DNA of 43,786 bases from assembly GCA_024683675.1 (NCBI GenBank), contig JAIKYB010000243.1, positions 1 through 43,786 on the forward strand, read 5' to 3'. The DNA is from Treponema sp. Its GTDB lineage: Bacteria > Spirochaetota > Spirochaetia > Treponematales > Treponemataceae. Below the pieces are notes generated by a model. That model worked only from the letters and a program-made list of their open reading frames with translations. It was not told the DNA's origin and ran no database searches. Position numbers and translations under genes: made by a program. This document shows positions 6,487 to 37,395 of this stretch, in pieces; position 1 is the stretch's first letter, and each line of letters opens with the position of its first letter.

Positions 6487-7281
6487 TTAATTACTGGTTA
6501 AATCTTCCTCTGAAGGAACATAACCGTCACTATCTTCTCTGCTACAGATTTTTATATCTCCAAAAAGTTTATTCTGAAGAATTCTAATCATTCTAAACTT
6601 TACAGCCTCAAGAATTGCCATAAATGCGCAAATTACATCCATTTCATTTCCGGGCCTTGTAAGCAAATCTGTAAACATACATTCTTTTTTATCTTCCAGA
6701 AGCTCATTCATGAGGGTAATTTTTTCATTTACCGAAATTTCCTCATACATGTTCAAAATCTTTTCATTTGAATACTGACTCATTATAGATTTGAACATGC
6801 TTTGCATTTGCTGCAAAAGCTCCCAGGTATCAACTTCTTCCCACATATTTTCGGAATCATCAAAAGGAAGCACTCTCTGAATCTTTTTGCGTTCAAAATT
6901 CCATTCAGAATTGTCTTCCTGATCTTCCATAAGGGAAGTCAGCTTCTTAAATTTCTGGTATTCAATAAGTTTATCTACAAGCTCACGTCGAGGGTCTTCT
7001 TCATCGTCGTCATCATAGGCAACCTCGACAGGCAAGAGCATTCTACTTTTTATATAAATTAATTTGGCAGCCCAACTATAAAATTCAGAAAGATCGCCTA
7101 AATCTGTCTGTACTGCATAATCTAGATATTCAAGATACTGCTCTGTAATCTGGGCGATTGGAATATCGTAAATATTTACTTTACTTTCACGAATAAGAGC
7201 CCAAAGTAAATCTAGAGGTCCTTCAAATTCACCCGCTTTATAAGCATGTTTTGTTGCTACAGTTGTCTGTTCCATTTCCAT
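6487..7281 (-). CDS. scpA: Segregation and condensation protein A
   Basis: GEFEGPLDLLWALIRESKVNIYDIPIAQITEQYLEYL; next to scpB. ATG at 7281 or 7275 preferred over the GTG at 7293. Confidence 0.95.
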   Translation of the reverse strand: MEMEQTTVATKHAYKAGEFEGPLDLLWALIRESKVNIYDIPIAQITEQYLEYLDYAVQTDLGDLSEFYSWAAKLIYIKSRMLLPVEVAYDDDDEEDPRRELVDKLIEYQKFKKLTSLMEDQEDNSEWNFERKKIQRVLPFDDSENMWEEVDTWELLQQMQSMFKSIMSQYSNEKILNMYEEISVNEKITLMNELLEDKKECMFTDLLTRPGNEMDVICAFMAILEAVKFRMIRILQNKLFGDIKICSREDSDGYVPSEEDLTSN

Positions 7282-7801
7282 CCTGGCACCCACCTACTTT
7301 TACAATTCCGTCTGCACCGCCCTCTGCGGTAATTTTATCAAGACAGGATATGTATTTTCTTCTTATTAAAACATCGGCAGAATTTGTCAAAATCTCAAGA
7401 GCTGGAATAAGAACAAATGCTCTTTCTTGCATTCTAGGATGTGGAATTTGCAGTTGAGGATGATTTATACTTTCATCCCCAAAAAGTTCTATATCAATAT
7501 CCAGACTTCTAGGCCCAAAACGGATTTCTTTTGAACGGTCGCGGCCATATTTGGCTTCAATTTGATTTATGGTTTTCAAAAAAAGAAAGGGATCCGAATC
7601 ATCGGCTACATAACCAAGGGCCGCCATATTGTAAAAGTCTTCCTGATCTTCTACATACATTGCCTTAGTTTTGTAGACCGATGAAAATGAAGGGTCAACT
7701 AAATGTCTGGTTAATTCCTGCTGAGCACAGGAAAGAATTTCCAAAGGTGTTTTATCATTAAACGCTCTGTTTGAACCTAAACCTAATAAAACACGCTTCA
7801 T
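7238..7801 (-). CDS. folK: 2-amino-4-hydroxy-6-hydroxymethyldihydropteridine pyrophosphokinase
   Basis: LGLGSN..., FGPRSLDIDIELFGDE, IPHPRMQERAFVLIPALEI. Confidence 0.95.
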   Translation of the reverse strand: MKRVLLGLGSNRAFNDKTPLEILSCAQQELTRHLVDPSFSSVYKTKAMYVEDQEDFYNMAALGYVADDSDPFLFLKTINQIEAKYGRDRSKEIRFGPRSLDIDIELFGDESINHPQLQIPHPRMQERAFVLIPALEILTNSADVLIRRKYISCLDKITAEGGADGIVKVGGCQDGNGTDNCSNKTCL

Positions 7802-7812
7802 ACAATTACATC

Positions 7813-8952
7813 CTAGAACAAAGCATCGCCTGTTGCAGGCGCATCAGCTGGGGTAGACTTTTCTTCGGATTTAGCTTTCGCTGTCTTTTTCTTATCTACA
7901 GCATTTCCAGCCTTATCTTTAAGCACCTGTCCTGGGAAAACAATTTCTCTTACCTTAGCTTCAACATCAGCTGCCAATTCAGGATTGTCTTCAAGGAACT
8001 TTACAACATTTTCCTTACCCTGACCAATTTTTTCTTCGCCCATGTTATACCAGGCACCACGTTTATCGATGATACCATGTTTAACAGCGGAATCCAAAAG
8101 ACTGGCTGCAGAAGAAATACCTTTTCCGAAATAAATATCAAGTTCACACTTTCTGAATGGAGGCGCAACCTTATTCTTAACAATCTTAACTCGAACTCTA
8201 TTTCCAAGTGCGTCTTCATCACCCTTTCCATCAATTGTTTCAATTCTTCGGATTTCAAGACGAACAGATGAGTAGAATTTCAATGCCTGTCCACCAGTAG
8301 TTGTTTCTGGATTACCGAACATAACACCAATTTTCATTCGAATCTGATTAATAAAAATAACAATACAATTTGACTTACCAATAATTGCAGTAAGTTTTCT
8401 GAGTGCCTGACTCATCAAACGAGCCTGCATACCCATAACAGCATCACCCATTTCACCTTCAATTTCCTTTTCAGGAGTCAAAGCAGCAACAGAGTCAACT
8501 ACGATAATATCTACAGCACCACTTCTTACAAGATTTTCTGTGATTTCAAGAGCCTGCTCACCTGTATCAGGTTGGGAAACCCAAAGCTCATCAATATTTA
8601 CACCAAGATTCTTTGCATAAACAGGATCAAGAGCATGTTCAGCATCAACAAAAGCCGCAACGCCGCCTAACTTCTGAGATTCAGCAATAGCATGCAAAGC
8701 CAAAGTAGTTTTTCCGGAACTTTCAGGACCGTACATTTCAATTACACGTCCCTTAGGATAACCACCAATTCCAAGTGCCTCATCAAGCAAAATAGAACCA
8801 GAAGGAATAACCTCAATTCCAGCAGCATCGGCCTTATCACCGAGCTTCATAATAGCGCCCTGTCCAAACTGCTTTTCAATTTGTAGACGAGCCGCCTCCA
8901 ACGCTTTCATTTTTTCCGACATATCCATCGGAGCAGAACCAACATTCGACAT
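7813..8952 (-). CDS. recA: Recombinase RecA
   Basis: [41 protein letters not shown]. Start at MSNVGSAP (8952) supported by SD GGAGGAAGG. Confidence 0.98.
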
Positions 8953-9034
8953 ATAGCCACCTTCCTCCCATATATAATATGGCCTTAGTTTGTTCATTTT
9001 TACCATTTTTTTGGAAAAAAAATTGGAATTTTTA

Positions 9035-10126
9035 CTATTTTTTTACTTTTTGGTAGACAGAACGGCCTTTTAAGTACCATTTTCCGCCTTCATAAGCAAT
9101 TTGTCCTAGAATCTGTACATAAGAGCTGCCATCAAAATCTCTTGGAGAATCAAAATGAACTGAAACAGAACCGTCATAATTAGACAGAGTTTCATCTCCA
9201 ACAAGTAAATCGCAGGTAAAGGTTCCATTATCATAAGTAACGGCATTTGAAATTTTTCCGCCCCAATCAACCCAACAGTCTATATAAAGAGGAGTTTCTG
9301 CTGTTACATCTGCATAAGAAGGAACATCTGTAATTGTATCAAAATCCGGGATTTCAAGATAGCCTGCAAGTATTCTAGCCTTTTGTTTAATTGCTAAAGA
9401 AGCATCAGAATTCAAGATTCTGTTTATTTCAATCTGAGAAGCATTATCCCTATGAAGCTGGAAATATTTAAGAGCATCATTGTACTTTCGGACAATATCC
9501 TTATTAGAAAGAATATATTTATAAGTCTGATTTGTTAAATCACTTTCCTTGGCATCAGAACGTTCATCAGATGAAAGCTCTAACTGACTAAGATCTTCTC
9601 TATAAGCCGGATATTTTTGACCTCTATGGAATGCAAAGAGAACAACTGCAACTCCCAAAATTGCAGCAATTAGAGGGGCCACAATAAGAGCTACCTTATC
9701 CGGATTAAAGCCTAAAGGAGGATAAAACTGTTCTATTCTGCCAGTGTCTACCCAGCGGCAAATTGTATCATAATCACCATGAACTCTTATAAAGGCAAGA
9801 GCCGCATCTGCTGTTTTATTTCCAGGATCATTTTCTTTTATTTCAAGATAATACTGAATTGCACGGGCAGAATCCCCTCTTCTAAGAAAAATGGCAGCCT
9901 GAGCAAGCAGCAATCTTGTATCCGTCAGTCGGATTCTTCTAGCCATCTGTAAATATGAAGAAGCTGCCCCTATGTCTCCGACATAAAGGCAGGCTATACC
10001 GAGAATTAAATAATATTCAAAATTGTCTTCATAAACCTCAGACTTGGATTCAAGACGCTTAATTGCCGTTGCAAAATGACGGCGGCGCATATCATTCCAA
10101 GCCAGAGTGATAGCATCTTTTGCCAT
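9035..10126 (-). CDS. Membrane TPR protein, hypothetical
   Basis: TPR-like N-terminus, TM segment [23 protein letters not shown]-terminal domain of unknown function. Confidence 0.7.
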
Positions 10127-10129
10127 AAA

Positions 10130-11362
10130 CTATTGTTGCCTCAAAATCGAAAGAATGGCATCCAATTCTGCATTCAACTGGAGTATTTCTTTACGATTAA
10201 CAGATGAACTATTTTCTTCCAAAGCTGAAATTCTGTCAATCAGATTCTGAACATATTCCAAAGTAAGCTGTTCTTTTGAAAGATTATTTACATTAAAAGG
10301 AACATCCCTTCTAACTGCAAATTCATCAATTAAGTCAGGCTTTTTGCTATTTAAGTCAATTTTTTCTTCTATAGGCTGTGGAACAAGCTTTTCTACAACT
10401 TCAACAGGCTCTGGTTCAGGTTCAGCAGGCTTTTCCGGAACTTTTCCACCTACATAAAGAGCTCCCTGTGGCACATTACCATCCGCTGCCAGGGCAAGAC
10501 AGAAAACATAAGAAACAGACTGATTTGGTTTAAGTCTTGCAGAAGGCCAGTTTATTCCAATTGCCGAATTTTTATATGAAAGGACAGTGTCAAAGGTTCT
10601 GTAAACAGCCATGTCTGGTTCCCAGGCAGTTTTTTCCATAGTAGCATAATTTGCAAGTGCAACAAGTTCAGGCTGAGAAATATCTGCGCCATCCAAAAGG
10701 AGCTGCATAACAGCATTTGAATTGCGTGAATAAATCCATCTCTGATCTTTTACAGAACGGTATAAAACTTCACTCTTTATAGGAGAATTATCCATTCCGT
10801 AGAAATGGTAACTGTCAGATTCTCCAAGAATTGTATCAAGCACAGCACGAAGGGCAAAATCATCAGATTTCTGTCCTACATTTTTTACAGTTGCAGTAAC
10901 TTTTACCATATCAACATCATTCTCAGAATAAGATCTGATGCTTTCAAGTTCAACTACAACTTCTGCAGCTTTAGCAACCTTATAGTATATATTAAATCCG
11001 GCCTCATTCTTTGAAACTGAAGTCTGAACATTTTTATCTGACAGCAATCTGTAGCGTTTTTTACCAGCCTTAAGGAAAAATCCGGAAGAAGTGTACTCGT
11101 TTACAGTAGAAAGAACAGGAATATATTTATCGTTATCATTAAGAACCAGGAAATTAAAGGTTCCAAGAGTTGGTTTTACACGAAGCTGAACAATTCCATC
11201 CTTAAAATTTAATTCTTTTGCAGAAGTATCAACCCAACCAGTGTAATTCTTTTTTTCTTCAGCAATTTCTTCCTCTGCGCTAAGAGGCATAAGACATAAA
11301 ACAGAGAAAAGGAGCCCTACTGCTCCTAAGATTTTTTTCTTCATAATAAACCCTCCTTCCAT
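10130..11362 (-). CDS. Hypothetical exported protein
   Basis: Signal peptide (MKKKILGAVGLLFSVLCLMPLSA), Pro/Glu linker, coiled C-terminus. Confidence 0.7.
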   Translation of the reverse strand: MEGGFIMKKKILGAVGLLFSVLCLMPLSAEEEIAEEKKNYTGWVDTSAKELNFKDGIVQLRVKPTLGTFNFLVLNDNDKYIPVLSTVNEYTSSGFFLKAGKKRYRLLSDKNVQTSVSKNEAGFNIYYKVAKAAEVVVELESIRSYSENDVDMVKVTATVKNVGQKSDDFALRAVLDTILGESDSYHFYGMDNSPIKSEVLYRSVKDQRWIYSRNSNAVMQLLLDGADISQPELVALANYATMEKTAWEPDMAVYRTFDTVLSYKNSAIGINWPSARLKPNQSVSYVFCLALAADGNVPQGALYVGGKVPEKPAEPEPEPVEVVEKLVPQPIEEKIDLNSKKPDLIDEFAVRRDVPFNVNNLSKEQLTLEYVQNLIDRISALEENSSSVNRKEILQLNAELDAILSILRQQ

Positions 11363-12288
11363 TATTCCTGATCTTCAAGAATCTTCTGAGCTTCAAGAGC
11401 CTTCTGCTTCAAAAGCTTAATCTGTTCTTTAGTTTCATCATATGGCTCAGCATTTGGAACATCTATGTCATCAGTGTATTTTACTGCATTTGAACTGATA
11501 TAAGTGTAAGCTTCCTCAGTTTTTACTGCCGAAAGCTGGTGTTCAAGGTCTAAAATCTGACGTTCAAGCTCTTCATTTCTTGAAGTTGCTTCAGCAAGCT
11601 TCTGTCGGGTTGTATTTACAGAATCGGAATTATACATTTTAAGCTGCTTTTCATATTCTTCCTTAGCAGAAAGGTATTCTTCACCGGTCTGCTTCAGCAA
11701 ATAAAGAAGCTTTTCTTCTCTGGCCCGCTGCAAAATTGATTCAATTCTATATTGAGCAGCAGGAGCCTTTGGTGCATCCGGATATTCAGAAACAATTCTT
11801 TCAAAAATTGCAGAAGCTTCATCATACTGGTAAGAAGCAAATAAGGCTTCACCAATATAGAACAAGGCAGAAGAATATAAATCACTATTTTCAAATTGAT
11901 GACAAAAATCACTTAGAGCGATTATGGATTTTTCATATTCTCCCATATTGTAAAGGGCGAAGCCCTTTTGGAAACTAACATTAGAGGTATAAAGAGAATC
12001 AGGGAAGCTATCAAGGTAAACATTACAATCATCCAGAGCTGCTTTATAATCTCCATCATAAATTTCCGCAGAGATCAGCATATAATACACATCTGGAGTT
12101 AGATTTTCAGGATAGGCAACAGCTTTTTTCAAGAGCATTTTTGCTGAAGACCACTGCCCTTCTGAATAAAAACGACAGCCCTCCACAAATGCAGTGCTTG
12201 CAGTTTCTGATGCCCAGCTTCCAAAAGAAAGACATCCTGCAGCTAATAAAATCGCCAGAATTTTCTTCATACTAACTTTCTTCTCCAA
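11362..12288 (-). CDS. Exported TPR protein (BamD/YbgF-like outer-membrane-lipoprotein repeats)
   Basis: Signal peptide; SDLYSSALFYIGEALFASYQYDEASAIFERIVSEYPDAPKAPAAQYRI repeat; C-terminal coiled coil. ATG 4-bp-scale coupling with next ORF. Confidence 0.7.
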   Translation of the reverse strand: MEKKVSMKKILAILLAAGCLSFGSWASETASTAFVEGCRFYSEGQWSSAKMLLKKAVAYPENLTPDVYYMLISAEIYDGDYKAALDDCNVYLDSFPDSLYTSNVSFQKGFALYNMGEYEKSIIALSDFCHQFENSDLYSSALFYIGEALFASYQYDEASAIFERIVSEYPDAPKAPAAQYRIESILQRAREEKLLYLLKQTGEEYLSAKEEYEKQLKMYNSDSVNTTRQKLAEATSRNEELERQILDLEHQLSAVKTEEAYTYISSNAVKYTDDIDVPNAEPYDETKEQIKLLKQKALEAQKILEDQE

Positions 12289-12292
12289 TAAA

Positions 12293-12922
12293 TCAATTCC
12301 ACTTCAAACTGCCGTTAAAGAAAGCAGAACCAGAAACAACAACATCGGTTCCAGCTTTAACAACAGAATCCACTGTATTCTGATTCACTCCGCCATCTAC
12401 AGAAATAAGGTATGAATATCCATTCTCCTCACGTAATTTCTTGAGTTCTAAAACCTTATCTACACAAGACGGAATGAGTTTTTGTCCTCCCCAACCGGGA
12501 TTGACAGTCATCACCAATATAATATCGGCAGATTTTGCGATTTCCGACAGTGTAGAAATAGGAGTTCCTGGACAAATTGCAACTCCAGCCTTCTTTCCAC
12601 GCTCATGAATCATCTGAATAAGCCTGTGAGCGTGAGCTGTTGCTTCGATATGGAAGGTAACCCAATCGGCACCAGCATCAATAAAGCTGTTAATCTGATT
12701 TTCAGGTTTTTCAACCATAAGGTGAACGTCAAAAGGAAGCTTAGTAAGCTTTCTGATTGAACGAATTACAGGATGTCCATAAGTAATTTCTGGAACAAAC
12801 TGTCCATCCATTACATCAATATGAACCACAGAACCATTGTTATTTTCAATTTGTCTTACCGCAGCTTCAAGATTAGCAAAATCAGCAGAAAGAAGCGACG
12901 GTGCTAAAATAGGAGTTTTCAT
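12293..12922 (-). CDS. rpe: Ribulose-phosphate 3-epimerase
   Basis: APSLLSADFANL, VHIDVMDGQFVPEITYGHPVI, VMTVNPGWGGQKLIP, VDGGVN. Confidence 0.97.
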   Translation of the reverse strand: MKTPILAPSLLSADFANLEAAVRQIENNNGSVVHIDVMDGQFVPEITYGHPVIRSIRKLTKLPFDVHLMVEKPENQINSFIDAGADWVTFHIEATAHAHRLIQMIHERGKKAGVAICPGTPISTLSEIAKSADIILVMTVNPGWGGQKLIPSCVDKVLELKKLREENGYSYLISVDGGVNQNTVDSVVKAGTDVVVSGSAFFNGSLKWN

Positions 12923-12938
12923 TTACTATATATAGTAA
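12923..12938. promoter_or_regulatory. 16-bp perfect palindrome TTACTATATATAGTAA abutting rpe start codon
   Basis: Sequence equals its reverse complement; immediately upstream of ATG at 12922. Confidence 0.55.
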
Positions 12939-12996
12939 CAAAAAGGCATTTATTAGACAATCAAAAACGTATAAGAAATTTTATTAAAAAAAATGC

Positions 12997-13025
12997 TTGA
13001 CATATCATTACTTTCGCTGTATAAA
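12997..13025 (+). promoter_or_regulatory. Sigma70-like promoter P1
   Basis: TTGACA-N17-TATAAA. Confidence 0.7.
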
Positions 13026-13061
13026 TCTTGTCTCATTTTTCCTAAATTTAAACAATCTTTA

Positions 13062-13089
13062 TTGACTAAGTCCCCGAACTTTGTATAAA
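13062..13089 (+). promoter_or_regulatory. Sigma70-like promoter P2
   Basis: TTGACT-N16-TATAAA, 16 nt before ATG at 13106. Confidence 0.65.
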
Positions 13090-13105
13090 ATCAAAATTAG
13101 ACATT

Positions 13106-14038
13106 ATGGAAATTCAAACAGAAGCAAAGATGAAGGAAGTCCTGAACTTTTTGCAGCAGGGGAATCCTTTTGAAGCACAAAAGATTATAAGTACTCTTTT
13201 TGAATCCGACTTGGACAGCAAAGAACTTATATTCACAAATAAGTGCTGCATTTTCTGGATTGAATCCATAAAGCGTCTCAGAAATACAGAAGACAGCTAC
13301 GAGCAAAATGAAGGTCTTTTACAGGAATGGAAAACTTTTCAGTCTTATATTTCTAGAGACACAAACACATACGAACCGGCTTTAGATGCTGTTCAACATG
13401 GCTTTTTTACAAAGGCTCTGGAAAGATTTACAGAGTTGCTTGAAGAAAAGGAACCATATCAGAGGGCAGAAATCTATAAAAGAGCCGGCATATGCCACAA
13501 GAAGCTGGGAAACTTTGATATGGCCCGCTCCTTTCTTATGGAAGCGAACAGTATCTACCCTAACCTTTCTTCTGTTCTGGCAGAACTGGCTGACTGCTGT
13601 TCTTTATGTGGAGAAGACAAATACGGAAAGCTGCTTTTTAGAGAGGCTTTCTATATTGACCCGGAGTCAATAGACTTAAGTTTTCTAGATTCAGAGCTTA
13701 TTAAGTGTCTGATTAAGATTACAAAAGAAAAGAAGCATTCCGGACAGGCATTACAATATTGGATTCCAGTATATGGAGTTCTAAACGGAGTGCTTAATAT
13801 AAAAAAGGAGCTTATACCACAGGAAGTGGTGAAGCTCAAGAAAGAAATTTATGCGAAAGAAAGCGAATACAAGGATCCTTCATGTAATGCAGAGATTCTG
13901 GTTCCTCGCCTTCTGAACTGTTATTTCAGACTTATGGATCATTACACGCTTGTTCATGAGAGTAGTACGAAGTGTAATGAGATATTGTTAAAAATTAAAA
14001 TTCTAGATTCAACAGTGTATCAGGCATACATCAGTTGA
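13106..14038 (+). CDS. TPR-like protein upstream of greA, hypothetical
   Basis: TPR-like repeats (RAEIYKRAGICHKKLGNFDMARSFLMEANSIYPNLSSVLAELADCCSLCG). Confidence 0.75.
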   Translation: MEIQTEAKMKEVLNFLQQGNPFEAQKIISTLFESDLDSKELIFTNKCCIFWIESIKRLRNTEDSYEQNEGLLQEWKTFQSYISRDTNTYEPALDAVQHGFFTKALERFTELLEEKEPYQRAEIYKRAGICHKKLGNFDMARSFLMEANSIYPNLSSVLAELADCCSLCGEDKYGKLLFREAFYIDPESIDLSFLDSELIKCLIKITKEKKHSGQALQYWIPVYGVLNGVLNIKKELIPQEVVKLKKEIYAKESEYKDPSCNAEILVPRLLNCYFRLMDHYTLVHESSTKCNEILLKIKILDSTVYQAYIS

Positions 14039-14072
14039 TGAGAATTTGTGTTAGCAAACACAGGAGTAAAGA

Positions 14073-16766
14073 ATGGCAGATTTAATTCAGTCCATCCAGG
14101 ACAAACTTAAGGAAGAGACTTGGACACGTGCAACAATCAGTAACTACACACAGAATGATTTGAAAGAACTTTCAAAAATTGTAGAAGAAGCACGAAATGA
14201 AAACTGTGAAACAGAAATTCATGATATTTGTGAAGAGCATCTTTCACATACAAAGGACAGTATTATAGCCCTTTACATCTGTGGAATTCTTGACTTACAG
14301 AAAGGCGCTCTTGACAACTCGGCACTTGTAAATCTGGTTGATATCTTCCAGAAAAATCACAAGGAAGCTATTGTTACTTACCTTTGTGAAAGCATTCTTG
14401 AAGATGATCCAAACAATAAGTTTGCACTTCGCACCTTAGCAGACGGCTACCTTGCAGAAAATAACGAAAAAGTTTGGGAGCTTTATGCAAAGCTTGTAAA
14501 GATTGACTTTGAAGAAGCTGACCTTGCAAAAGCCCTTGCAGAACACTATGACGCAATTGGCGATAAGGAAAATTCAATCAGTTACTACAAAAAAGCAATC
14601 CTTCGCTATATCAATCAGAATAACTACAATGCCTGTAAAGAAATCTGGTCTAAGCTTGTACAGACAATCCCAGAAGAATTCGACTTCTTCCAGATGCTGC
14701 GTCGCAAGATTTCAAAGACAATGGGTGAAATCAGAACTTCTACCCTCATGAGAGAACTTTACACCTGGTATAAAGACAATAAGAAATGGGATACTGCAAT
14801 CCTTATTCTTAAACAGAATCTTGAAATTGACCAGAAGGATCCTTGGGAACGTAAAGAAATTACAGAATGTTTCCGTGGAAAATATGCAGAACACAGCCAT
14901 CTTGAAGACTATATCCGTACATCTAACCTTACTCAGTCTTACAGAAACGTATTCGAAGCTATTAATGACTTTGAAAAACACATTGCTTTTGATAAAAAGA
15001 GCTTTGTATTCCATAGAAACTGGGGTGTTGGTATTATCACAAAGCTTGAAAAAGACACTCTTACAATCAACTTTGGAAAGGTTGCCGGCGTACGCGAAAT
15101 GAAGCTTTCTATGGCAGTTACAGCCCTTAAACCACTTTCAAGAGACCATATCTGGGTTCTTAAAGCTACAAAACAGCCAAAAGAACTTGCTGAAATGATT
15201 AAAAAAGATAAGGAATGGGCCCTTGAAACAATCATCAAGAGTCATGACAACAACTGTGACTTTAAGAAAATTAAAGCAGAGCTGGTTCCAAGTATTCTTA
15301 CTCCAGGTGAATGGACTTCATGGAACAGTGCAGCAAAGAAGATTCTTGAATCTAATTCTAAATTTGGCGTAAATCCAAATGATATTTCTATGTACACCGT
15401 ACGCGATGGAAATATCAGTATTGAAGAAAAGCTTTCTAACGAATTTAAGGCACAGAAGCAGTTCTTTGCACGTGCTGACATTCTTATGAAGTTCTTTGAA
15501 AGTGATGAAACAGACAAGTCAAGCGAACTTTTTGCAGAAATGTTTGCTTACTTTACAGGCTTCCTCAAGAGCATCAACCGTGTAGACGAGCATGTTCTTG
15601 CTTCTTACCTTATTGTTAAATACATCAGCGGAGTAGACAAGCAGTTTACAACTCCTGTTCATGAAACTTTCGCAGAAATCTACAAAAAAATTGAAAATCC
15701 TCGTGATATTTATACAAAGCTCAAGGATTCAAAGAATACACACCTTCGTGCAGACTTCCTCTTAGACATCAAAATGCTTCCAGACTGGAATAAGCAGTAC
15801 ATTTTGCTCTTCCCTACAGTTCTTGATATGAAGCTTTTGAACGACCTTATTGAAAAGGGCTTTGTTGCAGATATTCAGGATTTGGTACGTGAAAGCTTTG
15901 AAAAGTACAAGGATTACCGTGAAACAGCAATCTTCTTCTTCCGTGACTGCCAGGATGAAGATTGGTTCAAGGAAGCTGGAGTTTCTTACGAAAAGCAGTT
16001 GATTGCACTTATCAATATTATTGAATTGACCTTCCGTGAAATCAACAACCACGTAAATACAACAGAAAATAAGAAAATCAATAAGAATGCAACTGAACTT
16101 CTCTTCAAGAATGATGCAATCTTTAATTTCATGTTTGAAAACGGAGAAGCCTGCGTAAAGAAGATGTATACACTCATCGACGATATTGCAGACATTGATC
16201 CTTCATACAAGCAGCTTGCCCGTAACAAGATTCTTGAGAAATATCCTGAATTCAAGTTCCGTGTATCTGAAGAAAAGGCAACTCAGCCTAAGGGTATGAT
16301 TGTTACTGCTAAGAAGCTTGAAGAAAAGAGGGCAGAAGCAGAAAAGATTCAGAATGTTGACCTGCCGGCAAATGCAAAGGATGTTGCAGACGCTCGTGCA
16401 AAGGGAGACTTGAAGGAAAACGCAGAATACAAGGCAGCCCGCGAACAGCAGCACTACCTGCAGCTTACACTTGCAAAGCTTCAGGAAGAACTTTCACGCG
16501 CAGTTGTATTCGATCCAACAACAAGTACAACAGCAGTTGTTTCATTCGCAACAGAAGTTACACTTGTAAACCTTGATTCTGGAAAAGATGAAACATACAC
16601 AATTCTTGGTCCATGGGAATCTGACCCAGATAACAACATTATTTCTTATATGTCTCCATTCGGAAATGCCATTATGGATAAGAAGGTTGGCGCTCAGGTA
16701 TCATTTACAATCAATGATCACAAGTACAACTATGAAATTAAGAATATAAAGAAAGCCAAGAACTAA
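14073..16766 (+). CDS. greA: Transcription elongation factor GreA with long TPR-like N-terminal extension
   Basis: C-terminal GDLKENAEYKAAREQQHYLQ GreA signature; about 700-aa N-terminal extension; SD AGGAG. Confidence 0.9.
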   Translation: MADLIQSIQDKLKEETWTRATISNYTQNDLKELSKIVEEARNENCETEIHDICEEHLSHTKDSIIALYICGILDLQKGALDNSALVNLVDIFQKNHKEAIVTYLCESILEDDPNNKFALRTLADGYLAENNEKVWELYAKLVKIDFEEADLAKALAEHYDAIGDKENSISYYKKAILRYINQNNYNACKEIWSKLVQTIPEEFDFFQMLRRKISKTMGEIRTSTLMRELYTWYKDNKKWDTAILILKQNLEIDQKDPWERKEITECFRGKYAEHSHLEDYIRTSNLTQSYRNVFEAINDFEKHIAFDKKSFVFHRNWGVGIITKLEKDTLTINFGKVAGVREMKLSMAVTALKPLSRDHIWVLKATKQPKELAEMIKKDKEWALETIIKSHDNNCDFKKIKAELVPSILTPGEWTSWNSAAKKILESNSKFGVNPNDISMYTVRDGNISIEEKLSNEFKAQKQFFARADILMKFFESDETDKSSELFAEMFAYFTGFLKSINRVDEHVLASYLIVKYISGVDKQFTTPVHETFAEIYKKIENPRDIYTKLKDSKNTHLRADFLLDIKMLPDWNKQYILLFPTVLDMKLLNDLIEKGFVADIQDLVRESFEKYKDYRETAIFFFRDCQDEDWFKEAGVSYEKQLIALINIIELTFREINNHVNTTENKKINKNATELLFKNDAIFNFMFENGEACVKKMYTLIDDIADIDPSYKQLARNKILEKYPEFKFRVSEEKATQPKGMIVTAKKLEEKRAEAEKIQNVDLPANAKDVADARAKGDLKENAEYKAAREQQHYLQLTLAKLQEELSRAVVFDPTTSTTAVVSFATEVTLVNLDSGKDETYTILGPWESDPDNNIISYMSPFGNAIMDKKVGAQVSFTINDHKYNYEIKNIKKAKN

Positions 16767-36894: not shown

Positions 36895-36937
36895 ACTTTA
36901 ATAATAACAAAGTTTCGTGGAAAAGTCTTGTAAAAAT

Positions 36938-37240
36938 GCTCCGCACTGCTCGCTCTTCGCAAAAAACGCTCCGCACTGCTCGCCTTTTTTGCGCGGGGGC
37001 TCCGGTTCGAATCCTGTCGGCGGCTTGCGTGAAATACCCCTAAAAAAAAGACTTCCTGCTCTTTACAGGAAGTCCTTTATGCTGGGCCGACAGGATTCGG
37101 CGCGACGGTCGCCAACCTCCTGTTGGCTCCCTCTGCGCCGCCTCCGCGCCCTGTCGCTCGCATCCTTGCTCGCTTTTCAAAAAAATTGCTCCGCACTGCT
37201 CGCAATTTTTTTGCGGGCGCTCCGGTTCGAATCCTGCCGG
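36938..37240. repeat. GC-rich structured repeat cluster: 16-mer gctccgcactgctcgc x3, tRNA-Gln 3'-end copies in both orientations
   Basis: Copies of 16-mer at 36938-36953, 36968-36983, 37188-37203; gctccggttcgaatcctg[t/c]cgg at 36999-37020 and 37219-37240; ctgggccgacaggattcg at 37082-37099. Confidence 0.85.
37043..37080 (-). terminator. Intrinsic-terminator hairpin inside repeat cluster
   Basis: gacttcctg...caggaagtc with minus-strand T8. Confidence 0.85.
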
Positions 37241-37266
37241 CTTCTTCCTTCAAATGCCGTTAAAAC

Positions 37267-37302
37267 AAAAAACTCTCCGCGTTTTACGGAGAGCTCTTTT
37301 TT
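37267..37302 (-). terminator. Terminator downstream of tRNA-Gln
   Basis: ctctccg...cggagag stem, T-rich both sides. Confidence 0.85.
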
Positions 37303-37304
37303 AT

Positions 37305-37377
37305 CTGGGCCGACAGGATTCGAACCTGTGGAATGCGGGCACCAAAAGCCCGTGTCTTACCGCTTGACGACGGCCCA
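37305..37377 (-). tRNA. tRNA-Gln(TTG)
   Basis: Minus strand TGGGCCGTCGTCAAGCGGTAAGACACGGGCTTTTGGTGCCCGCATTCCACAGGTTCGAATCCTGTCGGCCCAG: intact arms, anticodon loop TTTTGGT, CCA not encoded. Confidence 0.96.
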
Positions 37378-37395
37378 ATTTATCATTAGAAGTTG

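Follow-up and report, generated by a model that had tools for sequence, protein, structure and literature searches.

The 43,786-nucleotide stretch of Treponema sp. DNA analysed here (the window; contig JAIKYB010000243.1) carries, downstream of its tRNA-Gln gene, one complete and one truncated unit of a structured repeat family, spread across the phylum, whose members sit on the 3′ ends of tRNA and tmRNA genes. The units are bracketed by copies of the 3′ end of the adjoining tRNA, one inverted (INV) and one direct (DIR, from C56 to N73). Such tRNA-end-bracketed elements are a known kind, represented by the RtT RNA (Rfam RF00391), the 178-bp tyrT/tyrV repeats of Escherichia coli and its relatives. 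The spirochaete family itself is new, because significant cross-matches between the two are lacking and their folds differ. It is absent from Rfam, and no description of it was found in the literature.

On the minus strand of positions 36912-37378, the order after tRNA-Gln(ttg) is terminator-like hairpin, INV, G+C-rich body and DIR; the series then starts again with another hairpin and another INV, but its body breaks off beyond the first hairpin. The host tRNA gene (37304-37378, ARAGORN and Rfam RF00005) has C56 at 37322 and N73 at 37305. Immediately 3′ of it lies T1 (37262-37303), a hairpin (37273-37293) with A- and T-tracts on its flanks, which the terminator scan lists on the plus strand and whose stem is followed by T6 on the minus strand too. 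The INV of unit 1 (37224-37241), which forms the 5′ strand of helix P1, is 94% complementary to 37309-37326 of the tRNA region. The complete structured element of unit 1 (37094-37233; 131.1 bits, E = 2e-28 with the covariance model R1) comprises P1, a three-way junction, P2 with tandem G-A, the hairpins PA and PB, and P3; compared with shuffled sequences, unit 1 folds with z = -6.6 as RNA and -6.5 as DNA. An exact copy of the 16-mer GCGAGCAGTGCGGAGC (37188-37203) makes up the apical part of its PA. The DIR of unit 1 (37082-37099), which supplies the 3′ strand of P1 and an acceptor 3′ strand, is identical to 37305-37322 at 18 of 18 positions, and T2 (37041-37081), a terminator-like hairpin (37050-37074) supported by the sequence and by the terminator scan, comes after it. 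Unit 2 has an INV (37004-37021) that is 100% complementary to 37309-37326 and a 3′-truncated body (36912-37013; R1 36.7 bits, E = 8.8e-7), which contains two more exact 16-mers (36938-36953 and 36968-36983) and ends after the second copy of the 16-mer hairpin, just past the start of fliG. All these features lie on the minus strand. The neighbours of the array are ordinary genes, fliG downstream and spoVG and a GHMP kinase (ispE-like) upstream. A coding function was rejected, as the 160-aa ORF overlapping the array has no Pfam match, and the Rfam search of the window gave no match to RtT (RF00391).

A first-pass annotation of this DNA had described two similar units built from tRNA-Gln 3′-end pieces and had suggested an undescribed non-autonomous repeat that carries or targets tRNA 3′ ends. 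That observation is confirmed and proves larger than described, and the suggestion is supported, all four of the predictions attached to it (many copies, enrichment at tRNA genes, matching ends, occupied and empty sites) having held. All the sequence pieces it listed are in place, including the orphan 18-mer that is the DIR of unit 1 and the inverted T-arm copies that are the two INVs; the window holds the 16-mer three times without a mismatch, where 0.06 occurrences would be expected if up to 3 mismatches are allowed, and the two units align as a 103-nt direct repeat (36947-37049 and 37167-37269; 81% identity, spacing 220). The proposed layout needs turning round, since the natural reading of its pieces, real as they are, is on the minus strand and places the units downstream of the tRNA; of the two similar units, one is complete but the other is cut off. 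The hairpins that it called intrinsic terminators are indeed terminator-like, but terminators alone are not significant (two, against a shuffle mean of 1.1). Its statement that no known family fits holds for sequence and fold, neither of which has an Rfam match, but not for the arrangement, which is of the kind seen in the RtT/tyrT repeats of E. coli. A single-copy or chance repeat is ruled out by further copies in the same genome, by those in the genus and by the 16-mer statistics, and decayed full-length tRNA duplications do not account for the copies either.

The genome of the window (G000, 2.4 Mb) is a metagenome-assembled genome about 80% complete. A genome search found relatives behind its tRNA-Arg(tcg), with the ends TCTGAGAGGATTCGAA ... 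CGAATCCTCT, and behind its tRNA-Asn, with the ends CTGCAGGTTTTGAACC ... CAAAACCTGCAGCAGCC, each pair matching the respective tRNA rather than tRNA-Gln; most other tRNAs of this roughly 80% complete genome are without the element. As the annotation had anticipated, copies are numerous. With unit 1 as a blastn query, matches were obtained in 99 of 146 same-genus genomes, and at sampled loci the INV-body-DIR pattern lay behind Gln, Arg, Asn, Thr, Met and Pro tRNAs. R1, built from an alignment of 23 elements and giving rough E-values, detected the element at E ≤ 1e-5 in 102 of the 146 genomes and, across the phylum, in 80 of 393 Spirochaetota genomes, representing 36 of 167 genera. An exact body pattern was also scanned against 84,980 species genomes, which sets a lower bound on the range: among the matches listed, all loci but one are from spirochaetes, with Treponema bryantii B25, Breznakiella homolactica and Gracilinema caldarium among the carriers, and the one non-spirochaete locus is from a termite-gut 'Tannerella' bin. 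Carriage by phages was rejected, the exact body pattern occurring in 0 of 2.9 million viral contigs (IMG/VR). The genomes are mostly metagenome bins in which contig edges cut arrays, and all of the evidence is sequence.

The expected enrichment beside tRNA genes holds. Among 119 R1 matches with context, a sample of the top-scoring matches rather than a random draw, 105 are preceded on their own strand by an intact tRNA or tmRNA gene, covering 26 anticodon types plus tmRNA (the latter at L147 and L169). The distance to it is at most 250 nt for 86 of the 105, the rest being mostly later units of arrays, and some units are found inside tRNA operons (e.g., L183 and L168). R1 holds only about 6 nt of tRNA sequence per end, and blastn matches to the body alone show the same adjacency. 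Fourteen matches are without an intact tRNA, six of them near a contig edge and eight away from the ends; most of these eight stand behind tRNA 3′ fragments that start in the anticodon loop or the T-arm. Two of the eight, both at L131, lie behind a tRNA-Asn cut by the end of the stretch. Fragments of this type before element arrays are most simply the footprint of islands that displaced a tRNA 3′ half together with its array.

Orphan 3′ halves of tRNA-Met or tRNA-Arg, beginning in the anticodon loop and accompanied by element arrays, were observed at L095, L133, L121 and L154 (genomes G077, G073, G004 and G463) and are likely the distal borders of integrated islands. At L245 (G136:C6:12500-21500), a second copy of tRNA-fMet and its element lies at a distance of about 3.8 kb, behind a tRNA 3′ half that begins near the anticodon loop; the stretch separating the copies encodes an AAA-type ATPase and a phosphoesterase-like gene, so that tRNA end and array have been displaced jointly by an island. 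Five tandem, near-identical AAA-ATPase-like genes of about 527 aa lie between two tRNA-Met arrays at L250 (G494:C1:2768000-2787900, about 6779-14613).

The body of the element measures about 115-145 nt and folds around a junction of P1, formed by INV and DIR, P2, which carries one tandem G-A and leads on to PA and PB, and P3, which carries a second tandem G-A. Covariation was counted as cells with double changes and amounted to 170 vs. 49 (sd 5) in the model set A1, 551 vs. 159 (sd 12) in A2 (55 elements, distant loci outside the model) and 910 vs. 250 (sd 20) in A3, with compensatory change in nearly every helix in all three sets. A2 and A3 were aligned by R1 and thus lean towards the model, yet the contrast with displaced versions is large, as the signal collapses when the structures are slid by 1-3 columns. 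Unpaired positions are about 80% purine. G-U pairs occupy 1.4-2.7% of cells, compared with 8.9% in the tRNA stems of the same loci; under one common folding method the values are 3.1-3.3%, compared with 6.9% in terminators, a gap of about twofold. This scarcity hints that pairing may be kept at the DNA level, and it could partly reflect composition. A CsrA-sponge RNA was considered on account of AGGA loops, with a weak rsmX match (26 bits, cut-off 56), and rejected, as the loops also read ACGA.

The ends of the copies follow the adjoining tRNA, as the annotation had predicted. In 90 of 141 distinct elements the DIR equals the adjoining tRNA over all 18 nt, and in 120 of them the own tRNA is the best DIR match among 56 distinct tRNA 3′ ends. 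The exact run of the INV is mostly 8-11 nt, from C56 to about position 65; it reaches at least 15 nt in 19 of the 141 elements, only 5 of which have a long DIR too. A Gln copy in one genome (G105) and an Asn copy in another (G416) have bodies that are 92% identical and ends that differ, each matched to its own tRNA, and within a single genome (G063) the bodies of a Pro and an Ala copy are 91% identical. Of all single observations, these near-identical bodies with different ends argue most strongly for a remaking of the ends on the target tRNA. In 44 of 92 comparisons, nearest-neighbour bodies share the same tRNA across species, which vertical inheritance would give as well and which counts against an insertion reading. 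A retroviral-type primer-binding site was rejected, as no complement of CCA precedes the INV.

Both occupied and empty sites, which the annotation had proposed to look for, were found, together with truncated ones. At the tRNA-Gln site preceding rplY, many genomes have no element, others have one and some keep a remnant (a solo INV at L196, a tiny body at L190), and Pro-cgg and Asn loci are likewise polymorphic. In several single units the sequence running from C56 into the flank recurs after the DIR, exactly over 84 of 84 nt up to the INV at L262 and over 43 of 44 nt at L326; the left border of this duplication is C56 and its right border varies. Likeness between the post-DIR and the post-tRNA flank exceeds the 99% level of control pairs in 22 of 67 single units, i.e., in just a third, and recombination between direct repeats could homogenise flanks. 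Arrays often end in 3′-truncated units (the window, L145, L170, L181 and L183), and 5′-truncated ends occur too (the second Asn unit of G000 and the Pro-cgg copy of G063). Minimal derivatives with intact INV and DIR and a body reduced to about 11 and 40 nt were seen at L320 (tRNA-Ser-gct) and L190 (tRNA-Gln), respectively.

We hypothesize, with about even confidence, that the family is an RtT-like repeat put in at the tRNA T-loop by a copying process for which the target is the template. The body would insert as a copy behind a tRNA, its 3′ end joined at C56, the sequence from C56 to a variable point some 25-90 nt downstream would be duplicated, and the 5′ end of the body would be closed with about 9-10 nt copied back from the tRNA sequence just attached to the body, where the fold, with P1 closing the junction, would place it; both ends would thus fit whichever tRNA is hit. 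Recombination of the DIR with the tRNA 3′ end would then lengthen and shorten tandem arrays, the tRNA always staying intact. The likeliest agent would be template switching during replication or repair, helped by the fold, or a recombinase, because reverse transcriptases and Y1 transposases are mostly absent and no linked integrase was recognised around five arrays. RVT_1 (PF00078) occurs in 5 of 21 mostly complete genomes, most of them element carriers, and was not found in G000 (about 80% complete), G044, G120, G077, G133, G105, G015, G018, G338, G349 or G333. Y1_Tnp (PF01797) likewise occurs in 5 of the 21 and was not found in the element-bearing single-contig G044, nor in G000, G077, G133 or G105. 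Both enzymes are disfavoured as agents, and a dedicated one of either type appears not to be needed. The ORFs around five arrays, read by eye, included no recognisable integrase, recombinase or cargo gene. The label of a non-autonomous mobile repeat is well supported as far as spread and retargeting are concerned. On a broader view, which we offer only tentatively, the family would belong to a class of non-coding mobile elements that at every insertion make their termini anew from the host tRNA gene, as a direct copy and a snap-back inverted one starting at C56, so that any tRNA is open to one element without damage; they would be moved by DNA folding and host replication or repair with no enzyme of their own, and E. 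coli RtT would belong to this class either independently or as a very distant relative.

A functional RNA of tRNA operons would likewise agree with the sense-only orientation and the purine-rich unpaired positions. Like RtT, it would be co-transcribed with the tRNA and freed by tRNA 3′-end processing, the DIR mimicking a tRNA 3′ end, and would act as a small RNA or as a processing or termination module, its ends being held by selection on P1 and by repeat recombination. The units inside tRNA operons and the strong structural covariation point the same way, and RtT has been reported as an expressed RNA released from tRNA-operon transcripts, with a suggested role in the stringent response and two RtT RNAs on Northern blots in A. 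pleuropneumoniae (PMC4986893). We nevertheless think this reading rather unlikely, given that occupancy is patchy (about 30% of same-genus genomes have no copy at the R1 threshold), that the occupied tRNAs differ between genomes with no conserved host set, that truncated and nearly bodyless remnants persist and that G-U content is low. The low G-U content would suit an integron-like cassette, in which the folded single strand, with P1 as the core site, recombines with the T-arm via a tyrosine recombinase and adds the segment C56-N73-terminator-INV-body beside the tRNA; the T-loop junction, the 18-bp direct repeats, the decay of arrays at the far end and the strong folding as single-stranded DNA agree with it. 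However, the five arrays inspected lack a recognisable recombinase or cargo gene beside their units, the DIR begins at C56 without T54-T55, and such a cassette alone would leave the near-identical bodies with different tRNA-matched ends unexplained; we hold it to be improbable.

Target-primed reverse transcription of a body RNA at a nick at C56 would account for the fixed 3′ end of the body, the variable-length target duplications starting at C56 and the 5′-truncated copies, but it is very improbable in view of the absence of RVT_1 from most element-bearing genomes tested, including the single-contig genomes G044 and G120 with 7 copies each, and of 3′-truncated copies being common too. Decayed tRNA duplications or scars of ordinary integrative elements, with which direct repeats of tRNA 3′ ends are typical and for which some arrays do lie at island ends beside displaced tRNA 3′ halves, are scarcely credible as a general explanation and are already refuted as such by a specific conserved folded body with an inverted copy at many tRNA types.

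The closest comparison is with RtT. Downstream of E. coli tyrV, tRNA-Tyr, INV GGGGAAGGAT, a body and DIR AATCCTTCCCCCACCACCA follow each other repeatedly, the unit that Rfam names RtT. As in the spirochaetes, the unit has an end helix made with an inverted partner (e.g., GGGGAAGGAT / ATCCTTCCCC), the DIR is the own tRNA 3′ end over 18-19 nt, units stand directly downstream of the tRNA on the sense strand, tandem arrays end in a truncated unit, and tandem G-A motifs recur (tandem GA in RtT: PMC7657543). RtT relatives also follow the Pro-cgg, Lys-ttt and Arg-acg tRNAs of E. coli, Klebsiella and Providencia, with a DIR that fits each tRNA; the Arg copies were recognised by arrangement only, below the Rfam cut-off. 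In contrast to the spirochaete DIR, which starts from C56 and has no encoded CCA, that of E. coli starts from 58/59 and includes CCA; RtT is a chain of hairpins rather than a three-way junction of P1, P2 and P3 (MFE folds differ), and the spirochaete family occurs in another phylum at far more tRNA types. RtT scored below the Rfam cut-off on the spirochaete loci L153, L169, L146, L183 and L173, compared with 133-137 bits for E. coli RtT in the same run, and a permissive search of six other element loci gave no RtT. Homology with RtT was also sought through R1, and the match was not significant (at most 12.6 bits, E = 0.07, P1 and ends not aligned). At the Enterobacterales loci L404-L410, RtT lies behind tRNA-Pro-cgg, and the second unit next to it breaks off soon after its first hairpin; at the E. 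coli locus (L405) the break is followed by a naRNA4/BIME-type repeat.

Other known systems share fewer features. Integron attC sites and cassette arrays also consist of short units bounded by imperfect inverted repeats foldable as single-stranded DNA and decay distally, but the spirochaete core is a tRNA T-loop rather than GTTRRRY and the ends match each host tRNA. Phages, ICEs and islands that target tRNAs share the T-arm junction, the direct tRNA 3′-end repeats and the intact tRNA, whereas the spirochaete units are non-coding, about 200 bp long, carry an additional inverted copy and share a single body family among many different tRNAs, to which their ends are matched. REP/BIME palindromes (RAYT, Y1 transposases) are likewise short non-coding palindromic repeats with a GGAG-like motif; unlike them, the spirochaete family is tRNA-bracketed and tRNA-restricted, and most tested carriers are without Y1_Tnp.

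For decades the E. coli tyrT repeat was a curiosity of a few tRNA operons, long unexplained. A structurally unrelated family with an RtT-type bracket, present phylum-wide at 26 tRNA types and tmRNA, turns this curiosity into a class, whose signature, the own tRNA 3′ end copied once inverted and once direct, is searchable anywhere. The near-identical bodies with tRNA-matched ends pose the question of how a short non-coding sequence copies its target into its own termini, and the family accounts for many orphan pieces of tRNA and short repeats next to tRNA genes in spirochaete genomes.

The genome of the window also contains arrays at tRNA-Val-tac (L048, G000:C208) and tRNA-Leu-caa (L054, G000:C204) with INV and DIR from their own tRNA and a different body, whose hairpin reads ATCCTAAAAAATTGC..GCAATTTTTT..AACGGAT; judged by sequence, these are a second tRNA-bracketed family. 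The same hairpin (AATTGCGAGCAGTCGCGCAGCAATT, with ATCCGTT/AGGAT flanks) occurs away from detected tRNAs at L026 (G000:C96:15981) and L030 (G000:C213:1272) as a dispersed REP-like repeat, and hairpin PA of the main element resembles this dispersed hairpin.
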